This document shows positions 8,795-18,727 of a stretch of 33,738 nt of DNA, piece after piece. Position 1 is the first letter of the stretch; each line of letters opens with the position of its first letter. Origin of the DNA: Fidelibacterota bacterium (GTDB lineage Bacteria; Fidelibacterota; UBA8477; JABMPR01); contig JABMOT010000079.1 of NCBI GenBank assembly GCA_013202385.1, forward strand, positions 1 to 33,738. Direction: 5' to 3'. The notes below the pieces were generated by a model, which saw nothing but the letters and a program-made list of their open reading frames with translations, was not told the DNA's origin and did not search any database. The position numbers were made by a program, and so were the translations under genes.

Positions 8795-11035
8795 CTAATC
8801 TGTGACATCAAGATTGGCAAATTTGGCAATGAGTTTCTTCTTTACGTTTCCTTGGAACATTACGGTAACCTTCGCTTCCGGTCCCGCGCCCTCAACAATG
8901 AGAATTTTTCCTTTGCCAAAGATCTTATGCTCAACCTGCATACCTGCTTCATAATAGCCAGACTCCCTTTGATTTAGGGTGCCCATTGCTTTTCGCATAC
9001 GAGTCGTGTGCTTAGCAGGTGTTTTGGCAACTGGCTTTGTAGGTTTACTTCGGGTCAATATCACTCCTGGTTTCCGGCGATAGTCCTCATGGGCATAATC
9101 GCTAATGCTTCTCGTTGAATAATCAAGTAAATCTGCAGGTATCTCTTCAAGAAAACGCGAAGGTCGACTGTACATTGTCTCCCCATAGCGCTGTCTCATT
9201 TGGGCACCACTTAAATATGCACGCTCCATCGCGCGTGTCAAGCCTACATAAAAAAGTCTTCGCTCCTCTTCCAGAGCATCCGGTTCTTCAATTGAACGTT
9301 GCAAAGGGAAGAGTCCATCCTCCATTCCAGTCAGGAAAACTACTGGAAATTCCAATCCTTTGGCACTATGTAGAGTCATTAAAGTAACCTGCTGTTTATC
9401 CTGGTTAAATTTATCTATATCCGTAAGAAGAGCGATTTCCTCCATATACCCCGTGAGACTCGGCACTTCAGCCCTTTGAGAATATTCCGAAATTGCTGAT
9501 AACAATTCGTAGATGTTATCGATTCTAACTTCACTTTCGGCGGTTCCTTCAACCTTGTAAATATTGACAAACCCCATTTCATCCACAAATACGCGAGCCC
9601 ATTCCTCAAGATTTAATTCATTCAGCAAGCTGGAGTATTTACTTATGAGTTGGACAAAATCGATAACACGATGAAAAGCTCTTGAAGGCAAGCCATATTC
9701 CTGGGCTCTTGTAGCGGCACTGAAAAGTGAAATGCCCTGATTAGATGCGAACGCGACGATCGCTTCTTGACTGGTATTCCCTATTCCCCGAGTGGGCTTG
9801 TTAATTATTCGCATAAAACTAACATTATCAAGGGGGTTCACGATTAATCGGAAATAGCCGAGGATGTCTTTAACTTCGAGTCGATCGTAAAATTTTGTGC
9901 CACCAATTATTTGATAAGGTATCCCGTTACGACGCAAGACATCTTCCAGAGGTCGAGACTGGGCATTGGTCCGATATAATAGAGCAACATCCTGGAAGCC
10001 ATGCTTATTACCACGACAGACAGACTGAATCTCATCTACGATCAGTCTACCCTCATCCAATTCATTTCTGGCTTCGAGCACCTTTATTAACTCGCCTTTA
10101 TCAGACTCAGTGAACAATTCCTTTGGTGCCCGCTTTTCGTTAAGCGCGACCACTGCTGAAGCCGCTGACAGGATGGTTTTTGTCGAACGATAATTCTGCT
10201 CCAGCTTGAAAATCTGAGCTCCGGGAAAATTCTGCCTGAAATCTAAAATGTTCCCGATGTCAGCGCCACGCCAGCCATATATGGACTGGTCATCATCACC
10301 AACAACGCATAGATTTTTATGGATATGGCTCAGAGCTTCGACAAAAAGAAACTGTGCTTTATTGGTATCCTGATATTCATCCACCATAATGAATTTAAAT
10401 TGCTCTTGATATTTTTTCAGGATGTGGGGGTTTTTGTCAAAAAGTTCCAGTGGTTTGAGTAAAAGATCATCAAAATCCATGGCACTGCTATTCTTTAACT
10501 CAGCCTGATAAATGGCATATATTTTTGCCACCGTATCGTCAAAGGTGGACATGGCCAAATCGGCTGCTTCAGAGGGGAAAATCATCTGGGACTTGAACTG
10601 CTTAATGTTGTAGAATACTGAATTGGGTTTGATAACATCGGTGGATATGCTCAACTCCTTCAAAATTTTCTTGACCACCTTTTGGCCGTCCTCATCATCG
10701 TAAATACTGAAACTTTGTTCATAACCAATATAGAGAGCTTCCTGGCGCAATATCCTGGCGCAAATCGAGTGGAATGTGCCCATGTTGACATATGCGAGAT
10801 TTTCACCCAGAATTTTTTTTATACGATCACGCATTTCACCAGCTGCCTTGTTGGTAAAAGTTACTGACAATATCTCATGGGGTGCTGCTTTCCCACTGTA
10901 AATCAGATTGGCAATCCGATGGGTTAGGACCCGTGTTTTACCGCTACCAGCCCCAGCGAATATTAACACTGGACCTTCAAGAGCTTGTACTGCAGCCTGT
11001 TGTTGAGGGTTTAAGCCTGCTAGAATATTGGTCAT
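8795..11035 (-). CDS. pcrA: PcrA/UvrD-type superfamily 1A DNA helicase
   Basis: 746 residues with every SF1A motif in order: the Q motif near 8-16, Walker A AGAGSGKT (27-34), VDEYQD (218-223), GDDDQSIYGWRGA (246-258), QNYRS (280-284), TLHSAKGLEFPVVF (554-567) and ERRLFYVGLTRA (591-602). Residues 697-746 form the Tudor-like RNA-polymerase-binding tail typical of PcrA (VEHKIFGKGKI). It is a 3'-to-5' ATP-dependent helicase for repair, rolling-circle replication and removal of stalled transcription complexes. Its ATG overlaps the mltG stop by four bases (ATGA), so the two are coupled. It is followed by the fur promoter region, with no clear terminator. Confidence 0.94.
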   Translation of the reverse strand: MTNILAGLNPQQQAAVQALEGPVLIFAGAGSGKTRVLTHRIANLIYSGKAAPHEILSVTFTNKAAGEMRDRIKKILGENLAYVNMGTFHSICARILRQEALYIGYEQSFSIYDDEDGQKVVKKILKELSISTDVIKPNSVFYNIKQFKSQMIFPSEAADLAMSTFDDTVAKIYAIYQAELKNSSAMDFDDLLLKPLELFDKNPHILKKYQEQFKFIMVDEYQDTNKAQFLFVEALSHIHKNLCVVGDDDQSIYGWRGADIGNILDFRQNFPGAQIFKLEQNYRSTKTILSAASAVVALNEKRAPKELFTESDKGELIKVLEARNELDEGRLIVDEIQSVCRGNKHGFQDVALLYRTNAQSRPLEDVLRRNGIPYQIIGGTKFYDRLEVKDILGYFRLIVNPLDNVSFMRIINKPTRGIGNTSQEAIVAFASNQGISLFSAATRAQEYGLPSRAFHRVIDFVQLISKYSSLLNELNLEEWARVFVDEMGFVNIYKVEGTAESEVRIDNIYELLSAISEYSQRAEVPSLTGYMEEIALLTDIDKFNQDKQQVTLMTLHSAKGLEFPVVFLTGMEDGLFPLQRSIEEPDALEEERRLFYVGLTRAMERAYLSGAQMRQRYGETMYSRPSRFLEEIPADLLDYSTRSISDYAHEDYRRKPGVILTRSKPTKPVAKTPAKHTTRMRKAMGTLNQRESGYYEAGMQVEHKIFGKGKILIVEGAGPEAKVTVMFQGNVKKKLIAKFANLDVTD

Positions 11036-12060
11036 TGCGTGGAGCTCCGTCGTTGATAGCGATTCACCTTATTATTGTGCTCGCGGAGGGTTTTTGAAAA
11101 ATCATGGGCACCAGTACCATCATTTTTCCCAACAAAATACAGATATTCAGTTTCTTCCGGATCCAATGCCGCATTAATACTGGCCAATCCAGGATTGGCG
11201 ATAGGTCCGGGAGGCAAACCGCGATATAAATAGCTATTGTAAGGGTCTTTGATCGAAAAGTGTTTCCGCTGAATATTCCCGTTCCACTCTCCGCGACGCA
11301 CCAGCATATAGACGATGGTTGGGTCACATCCTAAGAGCATATTCTTTTTGATGCGATTATGATAAACAGAGGAAACCCGTCGGCGTTCATCTTCACGCGC
11401 AGTTTCTTTTTCCACTAGTGACGCAAGGGTGATGAGCTGTTGCAAGTTAAATCCCAAGCTTTTGGCTTGTTCTATCATTTCAGGATTGATACTATCTCTA
11501 AAATGTTTTACCAGTTTTCGAATGACCATTCTCTCGTCACTATTTTCAAGGAATCTGTAGGTCTCTGGAAATAGAGTGCCTTCCAGGTGGCTAAAACCAT
11601 CTCCGGCAATCGTCAAAAGGGTCGAATCTGTGAGTAGAGTAGCCATCTTGAGAGAGTCCAATTTCAAACGCTGGCTGAGTAATCCGATAATTTCGTCGGA
11701 TCGCAAACCCTCCGCTATTGTAATGTTTATTTCTACTGCTCTTGCATGTGCCAACGCTGCTATGACCTCGCTGTTGCTCAACCCGGTTGCAACAACATAG
11801 GAGCCAGGATAAATAGATCGCGTTCGCTGCAACAGACGGGCAGCCATCTTGAAAGCGGCTGGCGATGAGATAATACCTGCGTCATGCAATTGATTAGCTA
11901 TCAGGCTTAACGAAGACCCTTCGCGAATAATGATTTCCGACGCTTCTACATTTCCTTTTGCAGGTCTTGCATCAAAAATGATGTAAAGGGTTGTGATCCC
12001 CAATAATGTGAGGATGATCAGAAATGTGCGTAGAGATTGGAGGATATTTTGCAAGCTCAT
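11032..12060 (-). CDS. mltG: Endolytic murein transglycosylase MltG
   Basis: 342 residues with one N-terminal membrane anchor (about 11-28), a LysM-like segment, and the YceG catalytic domain. The catalytic Glu217 is in ASLVEKET, matching the conserved site of the family; YHNRI and RGLPPGPIANPG are also present. MltG cuts nascent glycan strands in the periplasm and so limits peptidoglycan chain length. The start ATG has AAGGAAA just upstream. It overlaps pcrA by four bases. The mltG-pcrA pairing has no obvious functional link and may reflect shared expression only. Confidence 0.94.
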   Translation of the reverse strand: MSLQNILQSLRTFLIILTLLGITTLYIIFDARPAKGNVEASEIIIREGSSLSLIANQLHDAGIISSPAAFKMAARLLQRTRSIYPGSYVVATGLSNSEVIAALAHARAVEINITIAEGLRSDEIIGLLSQRLKLDSLKMATLLTDSTLLTIAGDGFSHLEGTLFPETYRFLENSDERMVIRKLVKHFRDSINPEMIEQAKSLGFNLQQLITLASLVEKETAREDERRRVSSVYHNRIKKNMLLGCDPTIVYMLVRRGEWNGNIQRKHFSIKDPYNSYLYRGLPPGPIANPGLASINAALDPEETEYLYFVGKNDGTGAHDFSKTLREHNNKVNRYQRRSSTQ

Positions 12061-12429: not shown

Positions 12430-12504
12430 GGGATCGTAGTTCAGTTTGGTTAGAACGCCGGCCTGTCAAGCCGGAGGTCGCCGGTTCGAGCCCGGTCGGT
12501 CCCG
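12430..12504 (+). tRNA. tRNA-Asp (anticodon GUC)
   Basis: A cloverleaf can be drawn. The acceptor stem is GGGATCG (12430-12436) with CGGTCCC (12497-12503), with one T-G pair. The anticodon stem is CCGGC/GCCGG around loop CTGTCAA, giving anticodon GTC. The T-arm has GGTTCGAGCCC. The discriminator is G at 12504, as expected for tRNA-Asp. CCA is not encoded; the next bases are CAG. A terminator follows directly. Confidence 0.96.
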
Positions 12505-12506
12505 CA

Positions 12507-12935: not shown

Positions 12936-14765
12936 ATGAATTTGCGAAATATTCTGGTAACTAGTGCTCTGACTATCATCTTCCTCAACGGATGTGAGTA
13001 TACCCCAACCGGTACAAATCATCGCGAAATCATCATTGAAGAACCATCAATCTCCATCAATATTAATAATGCTGTTGAAGAAATCTATGTTTGGGGCACC
13101 AAACAAATGGACTATTCATTTTCACTTGAAAACCGCAGTTTGGAGCTGGTCGAGTTTTATCTCGGGGATGATTTAATATATACCTCGGGGCAGGCTCAGG
13201 GATCGTTCTTTTTTAATTCGAAGCAGTATCCATCCGCTACCTATCTATTCAGCATCTTCGGCTATGCCAATTCCGGCACAGGAAGTCTTGCTGATATTTT
13301 TGGCGCAGAAAAATTAATTTTTGAACTTGCGATCCCCTGCATAATTGACAATGAGCCGCCTGCACCCATTGAGTTTGTTGACATATCTGTAAGTAACAAC
13401 CAGCTGAGTCTCATGTGGAATAAGTATAATGGAGGACCCTTTATGCGCTATCGGTTGATGCGCGGAAAGAATGTCGGTACTTCATACATGTCTGAAACCG
13501 AAATAGCGACCCTGGGAAATCCCATGGATACTGTCTTTATTGATCCCTCCTATCTAGGGGGTGATGCCTATTATCGCATTATCCTGGTGACTGAAAACGG
13601 ACCCGGGATGGGCGACTTTTTTCACTTTCAGACAGCAAAACCTGGTTTCCTGGACACCCAGGACATTTACCTAAGTGCAATTGAACTCAGATGGAATGCT
13701 TGTACTTTTGAACAAAATTTTGGCAGATATACCCTGTATCGGGATGGGGATAAAATATTCGAGACCACAGACATGTTAGATACTGTCGTTATTGACAACT
13801 CGGCTCAATTTGGAGATGAGATCGAGTATATTCTGGAAACGAAACCTGAGGTGCTTGGGTCTCCGATTTTTTCAGTTTTGGATACCATTGAAAAATTTAT
13901 TGGCGTGCGAACTGAAAATTTGAGCAAACTGGTTTACAATGAATCACTCGGATCCTTCTATACATATAGTTATGGTGAATTACGACGTCTTGAGGCAGGC
14001 ACTTTTCAAACACTGGCGTCACTTCCAATAGAATCGGAAGCAGCGTACTTCTGCTTTGGAATATCACCAAATGGTGAAATTGCCTATCTACTTCGGTTTT
14101 GGCAGGATCAGGGATATTTACTCAAGGTTGATCCGCTGAGCCTAAGTGTTGAGGAAATTTTTACAACCAACTCCTTGCTGGGATACAATGGTCGAGGGAT
14201 GAATAATGGTATCTCTGTTTCCAACACAAATTCTATCGCTTTTCCTAGTTTTCGCGAAACAAACAATCAAAACTGGGGAGCAGGCGTGGTCTTACTCGAT
14301 ATGAATGACCCAGTCTGGTATGAGACCTTTAATCAAGGATATGCCACGATTGCAACAATCTCAGGAGATGGACAATACCTGATTGCGTATGAATCACTTT
14401 ATTCAATCGGAGACCACACCAGAACACTCATTGCCAACCTTGGTGGTCCGGGCATTTTTAGAGATGATGGGTCTCAATTAATTGTGATAAATGCCAATAA
14501 TATTTCTGTGTATCAGTCATCTGGCTTCTTGAATATCAGGGAAATAGCAACACCAGAACTTCTCCGTTATCCGATGATGGACCCCGCCACTGGGTATCTG
14601 GGTGGTCATTGTCGCGAGAATGAAAAATATCTCATTTATAATCTTGATTCCGGTGTCAGATTATTTGAGATTCCAGTACAATCCTTTGGAAGATATTCCC
14701 TATATCATTCAAATTTGTATTGCAACAATTTTTACTTGCCATTGCCAGACAGCGAAAATGACTGA
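12936..14765 (+). CDS. Putative lipoprotein with FnIII-like domains and a propeller-like C-terminal part
   Basis: 609 residues. A lipoprotein signal peptide ends at IFLNGC, with the lipidated Cys at 20. Residues 140-232 and 235-315 each look like an FnIII-type beta sandwich (LSLMWNKYNGG; IELRWNACTF...YTLYRDG). Residues 330-605 carry repeating short beta-strand blocks with SPNGE-, SGDGQ- and RDDGS-type turns, typical of a beta-propeller. It is therefore probably exposed at the cell envelope and binds protein or glycan; no catalytic motif is seen. I cannot name a family. The stop overlaps the next ATG (TGATG), so it is coupled to the barrel-like protein and may work with it at the outer membrane. 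Confidence 0.75.
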   Translation: MNLRNILVTSALTIIFLNGCEYTPTGTNHREIIIEEPSISININNAVEEIYVWGTKQMDYSFSLENRSLELVEFYLGDDLIYTSGQAQGSFFFNSKQYPSATYLFSIFGYANSGTGSLADIFGAEKLIFELAIPCIIDNEPPAPIEFVDISVSNNQLSLMWNKYNGGPFMRYRLMRGKNVGTSYMSETEIATLGNPMDTVFIDPSYLGGDAYYRIILVTENGPGMGDFFHFQTAKPGFLDTQDIYLSAIELRWNACTFEQNFGRYTLYRDGDKIFETTDMLDTVVIDNSAQFGDEIEYILETKPEVLGSPIFSVLDTIEKFIGVRTENLSKLVYNESLGSFYTYSYGELRRLEAGTFQTLASLPIESEAAYFCFGISPNGEIAYLLRFWQDQGYLLKVDPLSLSVEEIFTTNSLLGYNGRGMNNGISVSNTNSIAFPSFRETNNQNWGAGVVLLDMNDPVWYETFNQGYATIATISGDGQYLIAYESLYSIGDHTRTLIANLGGPGIFRDDGSQLIVINANNISVYQSSGFLNIREIATPELLRYPMMDPATGYLGGHCRENEKYLIYNLDSGVRLFEIPVQSFGRYSLYHSNLYCNNFYLPLPDSEND

Positions 14766-15481
14766 TGATGAAAATGAAATTCTATCACTTGATTTTTGTG
14801 TTTGGTTTGGTGCCAATATTATATGCAAATAATTTTTCCCAATTATCAATCCGAGCGTCAATCGGTCAGGGTAGCTATAAAATGACTGATCTCCACGATT
14901 TACTTGATGAAATCATTGGGGATTATGCCGCTGAAGGAATCGCACTTGAGGCAACCAGTGACTTCCCGGCCTATTACACTACCCAAATTCAACTGCTAAA
15001 ATATATCACGCCTAAATACCAGATCGGACTGGTATGGCAACACCGTTCCACAGGAGCGAGATTGCATTATAGTGATTATTCCGGGTCAATATTAATCGAT
15101 ATATTTGTAAACTCAGAAGCTGCTGGCTTCAAAAATATATGGACTGTTTCTAATCGGGGGAAATTGAAATTCGAATCCTACCTTCAACTTTCTGGGATAT
15201 TCTCTAATTTGCATTTTTCGAATGAAATAACCGTTTTTGATGAAGGTCTTAAAGACGAATTCACGTTAAAATCTATCGGTATTGGGATCGAACCTGGGAT
15301 TTCTACCACAGCTGTACTTTCTAGACTCTCGATTAGTCTAAACCTGGGCTTCCAACAATGTTTCTCGAGACCGCTGCATTTCACAAGCAACAAAGAGGCT
15401 ACACTTCGAGTGCACAACCGCGAAGCGACGGCTGACTGGTCCGGTCCAAGAACAGGTGTCAGTGTTGGTTTTTCCTTTTAA
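14765..15481 (+). CDS. Putative outer-membrane beta-barrel protein
   Basis: 238 residues. A signal peptide (about 1-21) is cut after ...VPILYA. The mature part alternates polar and hydrophobic residues in short strands (YYTTQIQLLKYI, YQIGLVWQHR, LSISLNLGFQQC) and ends in VGFSF. A C-terminal Phe is the usual barrel-assembly signal. Length fits a barrel of roughly eight strands. It starts on the last base of the lipoprotein stop codon, so the two are translated together. No family is recognised. A barrel partner for the upstream lipoprotein is the most economical idea. Confidence 0.65.
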   Translation: MMKMKFYHLIFVFGLVPILYANNFSQLSIRASIGQGSYKMTDLHDLLDEIIGDYAAEGIALEATSDFPAYYTTQIQLLKYITPKYQIGLVWQHRSTGARLHYSDYSGSILIDIFVNSEAAGFKNIWTVSNRGKLKFESYLQLSGIFSNLHFSNEITVFDEGLKDEFTLKSIGIGIEPGISTTAVLSRLSISLNLGFQQCFSRPLHFTSNKEATLRVHNREATADWSGPRTGVSVGFSF

Positions 15482-15660: not shown

Positions 15661-15697
15661 TTTTATGTTATCCATCGAATCATTGGAGTCTCACATC

Positions 15698-18600
15698 ATG
15701 TTCAAAATCAAGAATTATTTTCTGCTCGTGCCACTCGTATTCCTCGCATGTAGCTCAACAAAAATTGATAGTCGCTACGACTATTCAAAAATGGACAGAG
15801 CAACGCGCCACGCCTATCAGGCTGTTGAGGCTTCTCTGCAAAAAGGAATTCATAGTGGACTCCCGGTAAAGTTTTTTCGCAACTGCAAAATCGATACAAT
15901 CATCATTTCAACTAAGCTGCAGAAAATTGACATTTCCCTGAACCAGGCTTTCGGAAATATCCCCATCCGTGAGGAAAACTCTGCGGCTATCTATACCGAA
16001 TTCAAAAACTCGCTCGGTCGCAAATTTGCCAAATATTCCATCAACATATCCGTTGCAGGGAGACCCATTGAACAACTCATTCCCAATTTTTACCGAAGCA
16101 GCAAGCGCACATATGACCACTCACGAATGCCTCTCCCAAACACACGATCCTATCCGCTCATTCGAAATATGAGCAAACCCTGGCAGCCCAACCAGGGATT
16201 GTATAATCGAAATATTGCCTTATGGCACAGCCATGGGTGGTATTATGAGCAAAAATTGGATCGCTGGGAATGGCAAAGGGCGCGCGTTTTCCAAACCGTG
16301 GAAGATTTATTGCCCATGTCCTTTACACTCCAGTATCTGGTCCCCATGTTGGAAAATGCCGGGGCACAAGTCTTTATGCCCCGGGAACGAGATACCCAGA
16401 CCAATGAGATTGTCATCGACAATGATGCTCCTTTGACAAAAAATTCTTATCAAGAGTACGCCGACGCAACCAATGATTGGTATACACCGACAGATTCAGG
16501 CTTTGCCATTGGAAGTCCACCATACGAAGCTGGCGATAACCCCTTCAAGTCTGGCACTTATCGCTCTATCTACGCCGACACGCTTGCCACGGCCAAAATT
16601 CGCTGGCTACCCAAAGTCACAGAACCCGGCACTTACGGCATTTATATCTCATATGCTTCCTCTGATTCCAACGTTACAGACGCACATTATTCAGTGTACC
16701 ATGCCGGGGGTAAAACCGATTTTCTGGTCAATCAGCAGATGGGTGGAGGCACATGGATCTATCTCGGGGCTTTCGATTTTCGAAACTCACCCAATTTAGA
16801 TATTGAAAGGGTTGAACTCACAAACTTAAGCAGTGAAAGTGGGAAGCTCGTTAGCGCTGACGCTGTTCGCTTTGGGGGAGGTATTGGCAATGTGGCTCGC
16901 AATGGACAGGTTAGCGGTCGACCTCGATTCACTGAAGCCGCACGTTACTATCTGCAATACGCTGGAATGCCCGATACCCTTGTGTATAGTTTTAATAAGG
17001 AATCAAGCGATTATAAGGATGACTATCAATGCCGGGCTGAATGGGTAAACTACCTGAGGGGAGCGCCCTACGGACCCAATCGTGATCGCATGGCTGAGGG
17101 TTTAAAAATTCCCGTCGATCTTTCTTTCGCCTTTCACACTGATGCAGGGTTCACAAGGAATGATACCGTCATTGGCACACTTTCCATCTACAGCACAGAG
17201 GGATTTGATGATTCCTTAAATTTCCCTGACGGTATGTCTCGCCTGGCCAATCGTGATTTCGCAGATATTATCCAAACGCAACTCGTTGATGATATCCAAC
17301 GGAAATACGATCCAGCCTGGACCAGACGCATGTTATGGGACAGAGGCTATAGTGAAAGTTCGCGACCAAATGTACCCTCCGTTTTGTTGGAGCTATTGTC
17401 TCACCATAATTTTTTAGATATGAAGTTTGCCCTGGATCCACGATTTCGTTTTGACGCCAGCCGTTCCATATATAAGGGTATGGTGAAATTTTTGGCCAGC
17501 CAATGGCAAACTGATTATACCATCCAGCCACTTCCCGTCTCGCACTTTCAGGCAAGATTCAATGAGGCAGGACAAGTTTTCTTGAGTTGGGAACCGGTGA
17601 TTGACCTGCTCGAAGAGACAGCGATACCAACAAAATATATCCTCTATACGCGCATTGAAGATGAAGCTTTTGACAATGGGGTTCTTGTAGATTATTCCTA
17701 TTCAATCATCGATTCGATTGTCTCGGGTGTTATTTATAGTTTTAAGGTCACTGCGGTAAATGAGGGTGGTGAGAGCTTCCCCTCAGAGATTCTGTCCATA
17801 TGCAGGGTCCCAAATGGAAAGGACCCGGTCTTGATCGTAAACGGTTTCGATCGTATTTCAGCAGCAGCCACTCTCGAGACTTCTGAATATCTGGGCTTTG
17901 CCGATTTTTGGGATGAGGGGGTTCCTGATAAATACGATATCAATTACATAGGGACCCAATATGATTTTCTGGCTGACTCACCCTGGCTCGATGATGATGC
18001 TCCAGGTCACGGATCCAGCTATGGTGACTATGAAACCAGGATCATCGCCGGGAATACTTTCGATTTTGTATATGCGCATGGGCGCTCAATCAGGGCAGCC
18101 GGATATTCATTTGTTTCAACCAGCGATGAAGCTGTCATGGATGGAACGATTGATATTACTAATTATAAATATCTCGACTTAATTCTGGGAGAGGAGAAGG
18201 AAGTCTCAGGTCCAAAATCCTCTGTAAAGCGGGAATTCAGAGCATTTCCAAAAGCACTTCAATATGAAATCACAAAATTTTGCCAAACCGGTGGAAATCT
18301 ATTCATCTCTGGTGCATATGTGGGCAGCGACCTATTTGACAATTCTAATGATACACTGGATATAAAATTTGGCCAGGAAGTATTAAAGTATAATTTTCGA
18401 ACTGACCATGCTGTTAAAACAGGTGGCGTCTTTTCAATAGCATCAGATTTCTTTCCTGTCGATCAAACGTTCGAATTCAATACTAATTTCCGATCAGATT
18501 TATACAAGGTCGAGTCACCTGACGCAATCGAAGCTTTTGGATCCGGGTCAAAAACGATTCTCAGATACTTAGAAAATAATACCAGTGCAGCTGTGGCACA

Positions 18601-18727
18601 CACGGGCGAAGCAAATATTATCATTTTTGGCTTCCCCTTCGAAACCATTGTGACGGAGAAAAACAGAGATGAAATCATGCTAGCCATCCTCAATTTTTTC
18701 ACAGCAGACGATGGGGTTACAAGGTAA
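15698..18727 (+). CDS. Lipoprotein with an amidase_3-like zinc hydrolase domain split by a golvesin-like domain, plus FnIII and C-terminal domains
   Basis: 1009 residues from the ATG at 15698 (numbering from there). A signal peptide ends at VFLAC with the probable lipid Cys at 18. Zinc/catalytic residues of N-acetylmuramoyl-L-alanine amidase (Amidase_3) type can be matched: His179 in WHSHG, Glu191 in RWEWQRAR, His480 in FHTDAG and Glu565 in LLELLSH. Between the second and third lie about 145 residues (255-400) of golvesin-like sequence (GTYGIYISYASS, GGGTWIYLGAF, SADAVRFGGGIG). An FnIII domain (about 610-705) and a Rossmann/glutamine-amidotransferase-like C-terminal part (about 708-1009) follow. 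Bacteroidetes homologues are often called 'xanthan lyase', but the motifs point to peptidoglycan or peptide amide hydrolysis at the envelope. The exact substrate is unknown. Confidence 0.8.
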   Translation: MFKIKNYFLLVPLVFLACSSTKIDSRYDYSKMDRATRHAYQAVEASLQKGIHSGLPVKFFRNCKIDTIIISTKLQKIDISLNQAFGNIPIREENSAAIYTEFKNSLGRKFAKYSINISVAGRPIEQLIPNFYRSSKRTYDHSRMPLPNTRSYPLIRNMSKPWQPNQGLYNRNIALWHSHGWYYEQKLDRWEWQRARVFQTVEDLLPMSFTLQYLVPMLENAGAQVFMPRERDTQTNEIVIDNDAPLTKNSYQEYADATNDWYTPTDSGFAIGSPPYEAGDNPFKSGTYRSIYADTLATAKIRWLPKVTEPGTYGIYISYASSDSNVTDAHYSVYHAGGKTDFLVNQQMGGGTWIYLGAFDFRNSPNLDIERVELTNLSSESGKLVSADAVRFGGGIGNVARNGQVSGRPRFTEAARYYLQYAGMPDTLVYSFNKESSDYKDDYQCRAEWVNYLRGAPYGPNRDRMAEGLKIPVDLSFAFHTDAGFTRNDTVIGTLSIYSTEGFDDSLNFPDGMSRLANRDFADIIQTQLVDDIQRKYDPAWTRRMLWDRGYSESSRPNVPSVLLELLSHHNFLDMKFALDPRFRFDASRSIYKGMVKFLASQWQTDYTIQPLPVSHFQARFNEAGQVFLSWEPVIDLLEETAIPTKYILYTRIEDEAFDNGVLVDYSYSIIDSIVSGVIYSFKVTAVNEGGESFPSEILSICRVPNGKDPVLIVNGFDRISAAATLETSEYLGFADFWDEGVPDKYDINYIGTQYDFLADSPWLDDDAPGHGSSYGDYETRIIAGNTFDFVYAHGRSIRAAGYSFVSTSDEAVMDGTIDITNYKYLDLILGEEKEVSGPKSSVKREFRAFPKALQYEITKFCQTGGNLFISGAYVGSDLFDNSNDTLDIKFGQEVLKYNFRTDHAVKTGGVFSIASDFFPVDQTFEFNTNFRSDLYKVESPDAIEAFGSGSKTILRYLENNTSAAVAHTGEANIIIFGFPFETIVTEKNRDEIMLAILNFFTADDGVTR

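Follow-up and report, generated by a model that had tools for sequence, protein, structure and literature searches.

The window analysed here, the whole 33,738 nt stretch of contig JABMOT010000079.1 from a Fidelibacterota bacterium, carries a plus-strand gene (nt 15698 – 18727, 1009 codons plus stop) that raises the question of what its product does, as annotated relatives, including Parabacteroides and Bacteroides records, are labelled 'xanthan lyase'. An initial annotation of the sequence had considered this label unlikely, and proposed a large lipoprotein with an Amidase_3-like active site split by a golvesin-like domain. In the explanation favoured by the current study, the product is an Amidase_3-type N-acetylmuramoyl-L-alanine amidase of the envelope that acts in peptidoglycan turnover and recycling (probability about 0.78). 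Support for the split Amidase_3 domain is good, a role in peptidoglycan recycling is likely from gene context in Bacteroidota, and we infer the substrate, the role of the insert, and the pathway used in the window's own lineage.

The reading frame is open from an in-frame ATG at nt 15665, which would add 11 residues to a start at nt 15698. A GGAG is located 9 nt 5' of the latter ATG, from which residues are counted; the ORF and the four residues named in the initial annotation (H179, E191, H480 and E565) are then found where it had placed them. The protein has a signal-peptide-like start (nt 15698 – 15751) ending in FLAC18, a candidate lipobox that is weak at position -3. A simple pattern detected a lipobox-like motif in 24 of 57 relatives; in the others, either the Cys does not fit the pattern or the signal is of type I. 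While the window protein does have a lipoprotein-like start, as had been claimed, 'lipoprotein' is not a trait of the family, because many Bacteroidota members carry no recognisable lipobox.

Searches gave 118 confirmed relatives, from which 80 loci were kept. Matches of any kind, counting partial ones to the C-terminal part, occurred in 48 of 60 related genomes, and a sample of 148 Bacteroidota genomes yielded at least 13 near-full-length matches. The family is widespread, being present in Bacteroidota, Neomarinimicrobiota, Calditrichota and Ignavibacteria, and ordinary Amidase_3 enzymes are also encoded in most of the genomes. Near-full-length relatives (38–46% identity) also appear in six unannotated faecal 'Bacteriophage sp.' records (MT836367, MT836053, MT835805, MT835912, MT836381 and MT836533), which are probably bacterial DNA in virome assemblies. 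Leaving out L110 and L054 from 59 non-redundant sequences gave a 57-row alignment, and a further subset comprised 47 of those 57.

A check by structure prediction had been suggested in the initial annotation, and the full-length AlphaFold2 model obtained with the 57-row alignment as input was confident (pLDDT 92.6, pTM 0.93). The predicted fold is not unlike Amidase_3: residues 165–603, taken across the insert, superposed on the C. difficile amidase 4rn7 with a VIA-align Z of 19.6 (183 of 186 residues, 2.3 A), and values of 16.6 to 18.8 were found for CwlD (18.8), AmiA (17.9), Rv3717/Ami1, AmiC, AmiB and CwlV. VIA-align was run on the Foldseek candidates for the full model; fn3 proteins and others headed the 50 Foldseek matches listed, and the absence of any Amidase_3 entry among these was not counted as evidence. 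Profile searches gave a more limited picture. In the window protein, Pfam matched only the second half of Amidase_3 (PF01520; profile positions 65–172 at residues 470–595), at 19.4–20.4 bits, which is below the 27-bit cut-off, together with a weak fn3 match at residues 613–700. Among 47 relatives scanned at E <= 0.01, Golvesin_C was found in 47, fn3 in 44 and Amidase_3 in 34 (best Amidase_3 E, 1.8e-7), and the Amidase_3 cut-off was exceeded by 4 of 12 split-family members. At the level of sequence, the matches to these three domains exceed chance, because they recur across the 47 relatives. The Amidase_3 profile never matched the first half of the domain, even with the golvesin block excised (24.0 bits, again to the second half), and no significant match resulted when the first half alone was compared with ordinary amidases by HMM-HMM alignment (probability 1.7%). 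Since both comparisons failed there, the first half of the domain rests on structure.

The model begins with an alpha/beta domain (residues ~30–164; nt 15785 – 16189) that has no Pfam name and a pLDDT mostly above 90. A GerMN-like domain (PF10646), guessed from the strand pattern, was rejected, as Pfam gave no match and the family occurred in none of the 60 relative genomes. A 262-residue open frame in another genome (L175, G145:C6:42316-42639) weakly matches this N-terminal domain alone (63–168, E 7e-4) and is perhaps a stand-alone copy. The first part of the Amidase_3 domain (residues 165–235; nt 16190 – 16402), assigned by model and structural alignment, comprises strand 1 with His179, a beta hairpin (181–191), Glu202/Asp203 at helix 1, strand 2, and the motif RERD232; the second part (residues ~401–603; nt 16898 – 17506) is assigned by Pfam as well. 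A fibronectin type III domain, clear by profile (residues 613–700; nt 17534 – 17797), is followed by a flavodoxin-like domain (residues ~708–1003; nt 17819 – 18706) that aligns structurally with GATase1-like and GH42 trimerisation-like domains (VIA-align Z 14–15). The model thus supports a separate fold for the C-terminal 300 or so residues, with structural matches of its own, as had been proposed, and the reading as an envelope amidase bearing additional domains is likewise supported.

Inserted in the amidase domain is a golvesin/xanthan-lyase-type, carbohydrate-binding-like beta domain (residues 236–395; nt 16403 – 16882), identified by Pfam and by structural alignment. Golvesin_C (PF25275) matches residues 287–392 with an E of 3e-22 (79.5 bits, cut-off 31.6), and the insert superposes on the C-terminal golvesin-like domain of the Paenibacillus xanthan lyase 6f2p with Z 19.0 (133 residues, 1.8 A, 24% identity). 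In a fragment model of residues 198–612, the insert also resembled CBM35-type modules (Z ~10). The interruption of the Amidase_3 domain by a golvesin-like domain is thereby supported. The initial annotation had placed about 145 golvesin residues between the second and third active-site residues; the block does lie there, but the gap is longer than the block (255–320 residues from E202 to H480). From our own reading of sequence and secondary structure rather than a computed alignment, RERD232 is similar to the canonical TRxxD that follows strand 2, and DDYQCRAEWVN (441–451) to the canonical LxxRxxxAN helix; the golvesin domain would sit between the two, separating strand 2 from the helix that comes next.

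By structural register, His179 (nt 16232 – 16234) corresponds to His49 of CwlD and His11 of Rv3717, and Glu565 (nt 17390 – 17392) to Glu199 and Glu176, respectively; these pairings were read from the ends of the structural alignments, assuming that the short stretches between are gap-free. The two histidines are described as zinc-binding, and the two glutamates as water-binding, in the accounts of CwlD (PMC8496864) and Rv3717 (PMC3852659). His480 (nt 17135 – 17137), in FHTDAG, aligns with the second zinc-binding His motif both in the Pfam profile and by HMM-HMM alignment. Residues H179, E202, D203, H480, D482 and E565 are kept in all 100 distinct relatives (111 aligned; 9 of the 111 ORF rows, not spanning residues 70 to 990, were omitted from these counts). 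Conservation alone is weak evidence, because about 100 of the 1009 alignment columns are invariant, and eight added relatives had been chosen as ORFs with SHGW, a bias towards H179, although each of the eight loci yielded one. Locus L157 had appeared to be a relative without H480 and E565, but this was an antisense ORF chosen by length, and the correct frame keeps all of the residues.

Three members of the H-E-H-E set given in the initial annotation were thus retained, H179 and E565 by register and H480 by sequence. The fourth was Glu191 (nt 16268 – 16270) as the second zinc ligand, which would leave Glu202 with some other role. This assignment is quite unlikely, although E191 is kept in 99 of the 100 relatives and its distance of 12 from the His is near the 15–16 of ordinary members (AmiA 65 to 80, CwlD 49 to 65). 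In the model of residues 198–612 alone (pLDDT 92.6, pTM 0.90), residue 198 pairs with a position that precedes the zinc Glu by 11 to 15 residues in all five solved structures computed (the zinc Glu numbers of 8c2o, 4rn7 and 5emi being derived from alignments), while with E191 as ligand it would pair 7 residues after it. E191 is therefore probably not a zinc ligand. The full model places it in a hairpin ahead of the helix that bears the Glu in known members, and a similar hairpin is described for Rv3717, where it separates His11 from Glu46 (PMC3852659). Allowing for unpaired residues, the zinc Glu corresponds to model residue 202 to 207 in four of the five structures and to 209 in 4lq6, provided that truncation leaves the cut end where it is in the full-length protein and that it is this loop which holds the extra unpaired residues. 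The only acidic residues within 198–209 are the invariant Glu202 and Asp203 (nt 16301 – 16306), so that, on structural register, the second zinc ligand is probably E202, or else D203. The fold, the split, the conservation, the positions of H179 and E565 and the gene neighbourhood in part of the Bacteroidota are computed results, and zinc binding and catalysis are predictions.

The C-terminal module is shared with other proteins. Residues ~784–1002 recur in further proteins of the same genomes, and eight such stretches were read: three have an intact Amidase_3 domain (L134, L135 and L136, the first taken from the Amidase_3 search and not from a module match), one has GH18 beside NamZ (L132), one has LysM (L138), and the rest have no enzyme name. 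GH18 was found in five of ten Bacteroidota module proteins scanned, and a weak M23 peptidase match in one. The enzymes and domains borne by module proteins are thus GH18, Amidase_3, LysM and perhaps M23, several with type IX secretion tails. The combined fn3 and flavodoxin-like module (nt 17534 – 18706 in the window), which has no Pfam name, was seen in L132, L135, L136, L138, L165, L169 and L171–L174. In 15 of 18 genomes of the window's genus, a gene bearing the module is flanked on both sides by NamZ genes (hand count; the GH18 domain was read in L132 alone), and in 9 of 12 this contig carries SpoIID as well. A SpoIID-NamZ-GH18-NamZ cluster, in which the GH18 protein bears the module, is conserved in this genus (L132 and related contigs, G000:C119 and others).

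Flanking ORFs of the 80 loci and the window were clustered, and cluster representatives named by Pfam. Fifty loci are from Bacteroidota, 40 of them with at least 3.6 kb downstream, and in these 40 the split-amidase gene is followed on the same strand, in order, by glycosyltransferase and SpoIID genes in 17, by glycosyltransferase, SpoIID and MFS genes in 15, and by these plus NamZ in 9. The MFS neighbours are AmpG-like, and a nearby gene has a weak BadF-type kinase match in 9 loci. At least one of SpoIID, MFS, NamZ or kinase is present in 29 of the 50 Bacteroidota loci compared with none of the 30 others; 21 Bacteroidota loci likewise have no recycling gene beside the split-amidase gene. The Parabacteroides gene is followed by a glycosyltransferase and DUF4922 but not by SpoIID, and neither comes after the gene in Bacteroides finegoldii. 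Since NamZ and SpoIID form the context in both lineages, around the split amidase in one and around a module-bearing protein in the other, the architecture is tied to the same pathway via different genes. Just upstream of the window gene are two ORFs without Pfam names (nt 12936 – 14765 and 14765 – 15481; 2 of 81 loci), lipoprotein-like and outer-membrane-barrel-like by eye. An MltG (YceG) gene, encoding a peptidoglycan enzyme, is located about 3.6 kb upstream on the minus strand (nt 11032 – 12060; ORF cluster in 7 loci), and a tRNA-Asp gene at nt 12430 – 12505.

Gene order around a 'xanthane lyase' has also been described in Tannerella forsythia, where we take ybbC to be NamZ and lytB to be SpoIID, in agreement with the Pfam names of the neighbours here. 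The order reported is Tanf_08345 ('xanthane lyase'), gtf, gtf, lytB, ampG, ybbC, murT, murK, murQ, described as an operon with one transcript under GppX control (PMC5388701), and a MurK-like kinase is reported directly upstream of the recycling cluster (PMC10465942). Disaccharides alone were released in work with T. forsythia cell extracts and an ampG mutant, for which reason its authors inferred a strong periplasmic amidase activity, naming no gene in that account (PMC7670621). SpoIID enzymes are reported to digest denuded glycans, and an amidase enabled one of them to digest peptidoglycan (PMC6635528). The split-amidase family may be considered a candidate for the T. forsythia periplasmic amidase, with ordinary amidases as rivals; the split amidase need not be the recycling amidase, because ordinary Amidase_3 enzymes occur alongside it in most genomes. 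In the mechanism proposed, His179, His480 and Glu202 (or Asp203) would coordinate the zinc, while the water molecule that cleaves MurNAc from the stem peptide would be activated by Glu565. The inserted golvesin domain probably binds glycan, holding or orienting the strand, and the fn3 and C-terminal domains are probably a spacer and docking or binding parts found also in other hydrolases of the wall. Once stripped, the strand would be handed on to SpoIID-type and NamZ enzymes and to an importer resembling AmpG. If the protein is an amidase, it plausibly supplies a step that has been lacking from cell-wall recycling in Bacteroidota, between strand cutting by SpoIID-type enzymes, NamZ and import through AmpG, and the presence of a binding domain within, rather than appended to, the catalytic domain offers a testable coupling of strand recognition to cleavage. 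A bolder proposal, somewhat short of an even chance, is that the misnamed family is a dedicated periplasmic peptidoglycan-scavenging amidase of Bacteroidota and neighbouring phyla, including that of the MurNAc-dependent T. forsythia, and that its golvesin domain acts to thread or clamp glycan strands, allowing the stems to be removed ahead of SpoIID and NamZ.

Alternatively, the protein could be an active zinc amidase with this fold whose natural target is a different amide, on glycopeptides of the envelope or the diet, the glycan being selected by the golvesin domain. Golvesin-like domains of two Bacteroides proteins are reported to bind N-glycan motifs (PMC9166713), several Bacteroidota loci have glycan-use neighbours (SusD, TonB receptor, GH9), and in the full model a long hairpin and an extra segment alter the surroundings of the active site. 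The recurring SpoIID, NamZ, AmpG-like and murein-kinase-like neighbours oppose such a substrate, and to our knowledge Amidase_3 enzymes of known activity act on peptidoglycan, so that this reading is considered rather unlikely. That the fold is catalytically silent, the protein being a peptidoglycan-binding or scaffold component, accords with the evidence from the window protein being of fold only, and the peptidoglycan pathway has many regulators that act by binding to amidases or to strands. It is nonetheless very improbable, because catalytic positions invariant in 100 of 100 distinct relatives from several phyla would not be needed in a silent domain. There is almost no chance that the protein is a xanthan or other polysaccharide lyase. 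Relatives bear the label and the top PDB sequence match is the lyase 6f2p, but the likeness is confined to the C-terminal golvesin-like domain of the latter (chain residues 905–1039), the catalytic fold is that of Amidase_3, and Pfam detected no polysaccharide lyase domain, as expected of a xanthan lyase (polysaccharide lyase family 8), in the window protein at E <= 1 or in the 47 relatives at E <= 0.01. The doubt cast on the label by the initial annotation is upheld, and the name under which this widely conserved family is publicly annotated is misleading. Literature searches, limited in coverage, found no paper joining a golvesin domain and an amidase.

Among known systems, the Paenibacillus lyase shares with the window protein the domain matching the insert, while its lyase catalytic domain is absent from the latter. 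The Bacteroides lectins Cbeg4 and Cbeg5, compared by description only, likewise combine fn3 with a golvesin-type domain (CBM6-CBM35-CBM36_like_2) and are secreted but, unlike the window protein, are described there as having no enzymatic domain (PMC9166713). Tanf_08345 of T. forsythia matches the Bacteroidota relatives in label and gene order, and is on these grounds a putative orthologue. The closest parallels are the Amidase_3 enzymes (CwlD, Rv3717/Ami1, AmiA/B/C and CwlV), which share the fold over nearly the whole domain and have equivalents of the zinc His, the second His and the catalytic Glu; in Rv3717, as in the window protein, a hairpin lies between His and Glu. AmiA/B/C have a regulatory insert elsewhere. 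Compared with all of these enzymes, the window protein differs in the 160-residue golvesin domain inserted after strand 2 and ahead of the helix that comes next, in an HMM match confined to the second half of the domain, and in the large domains added at both its N- and C-termini.
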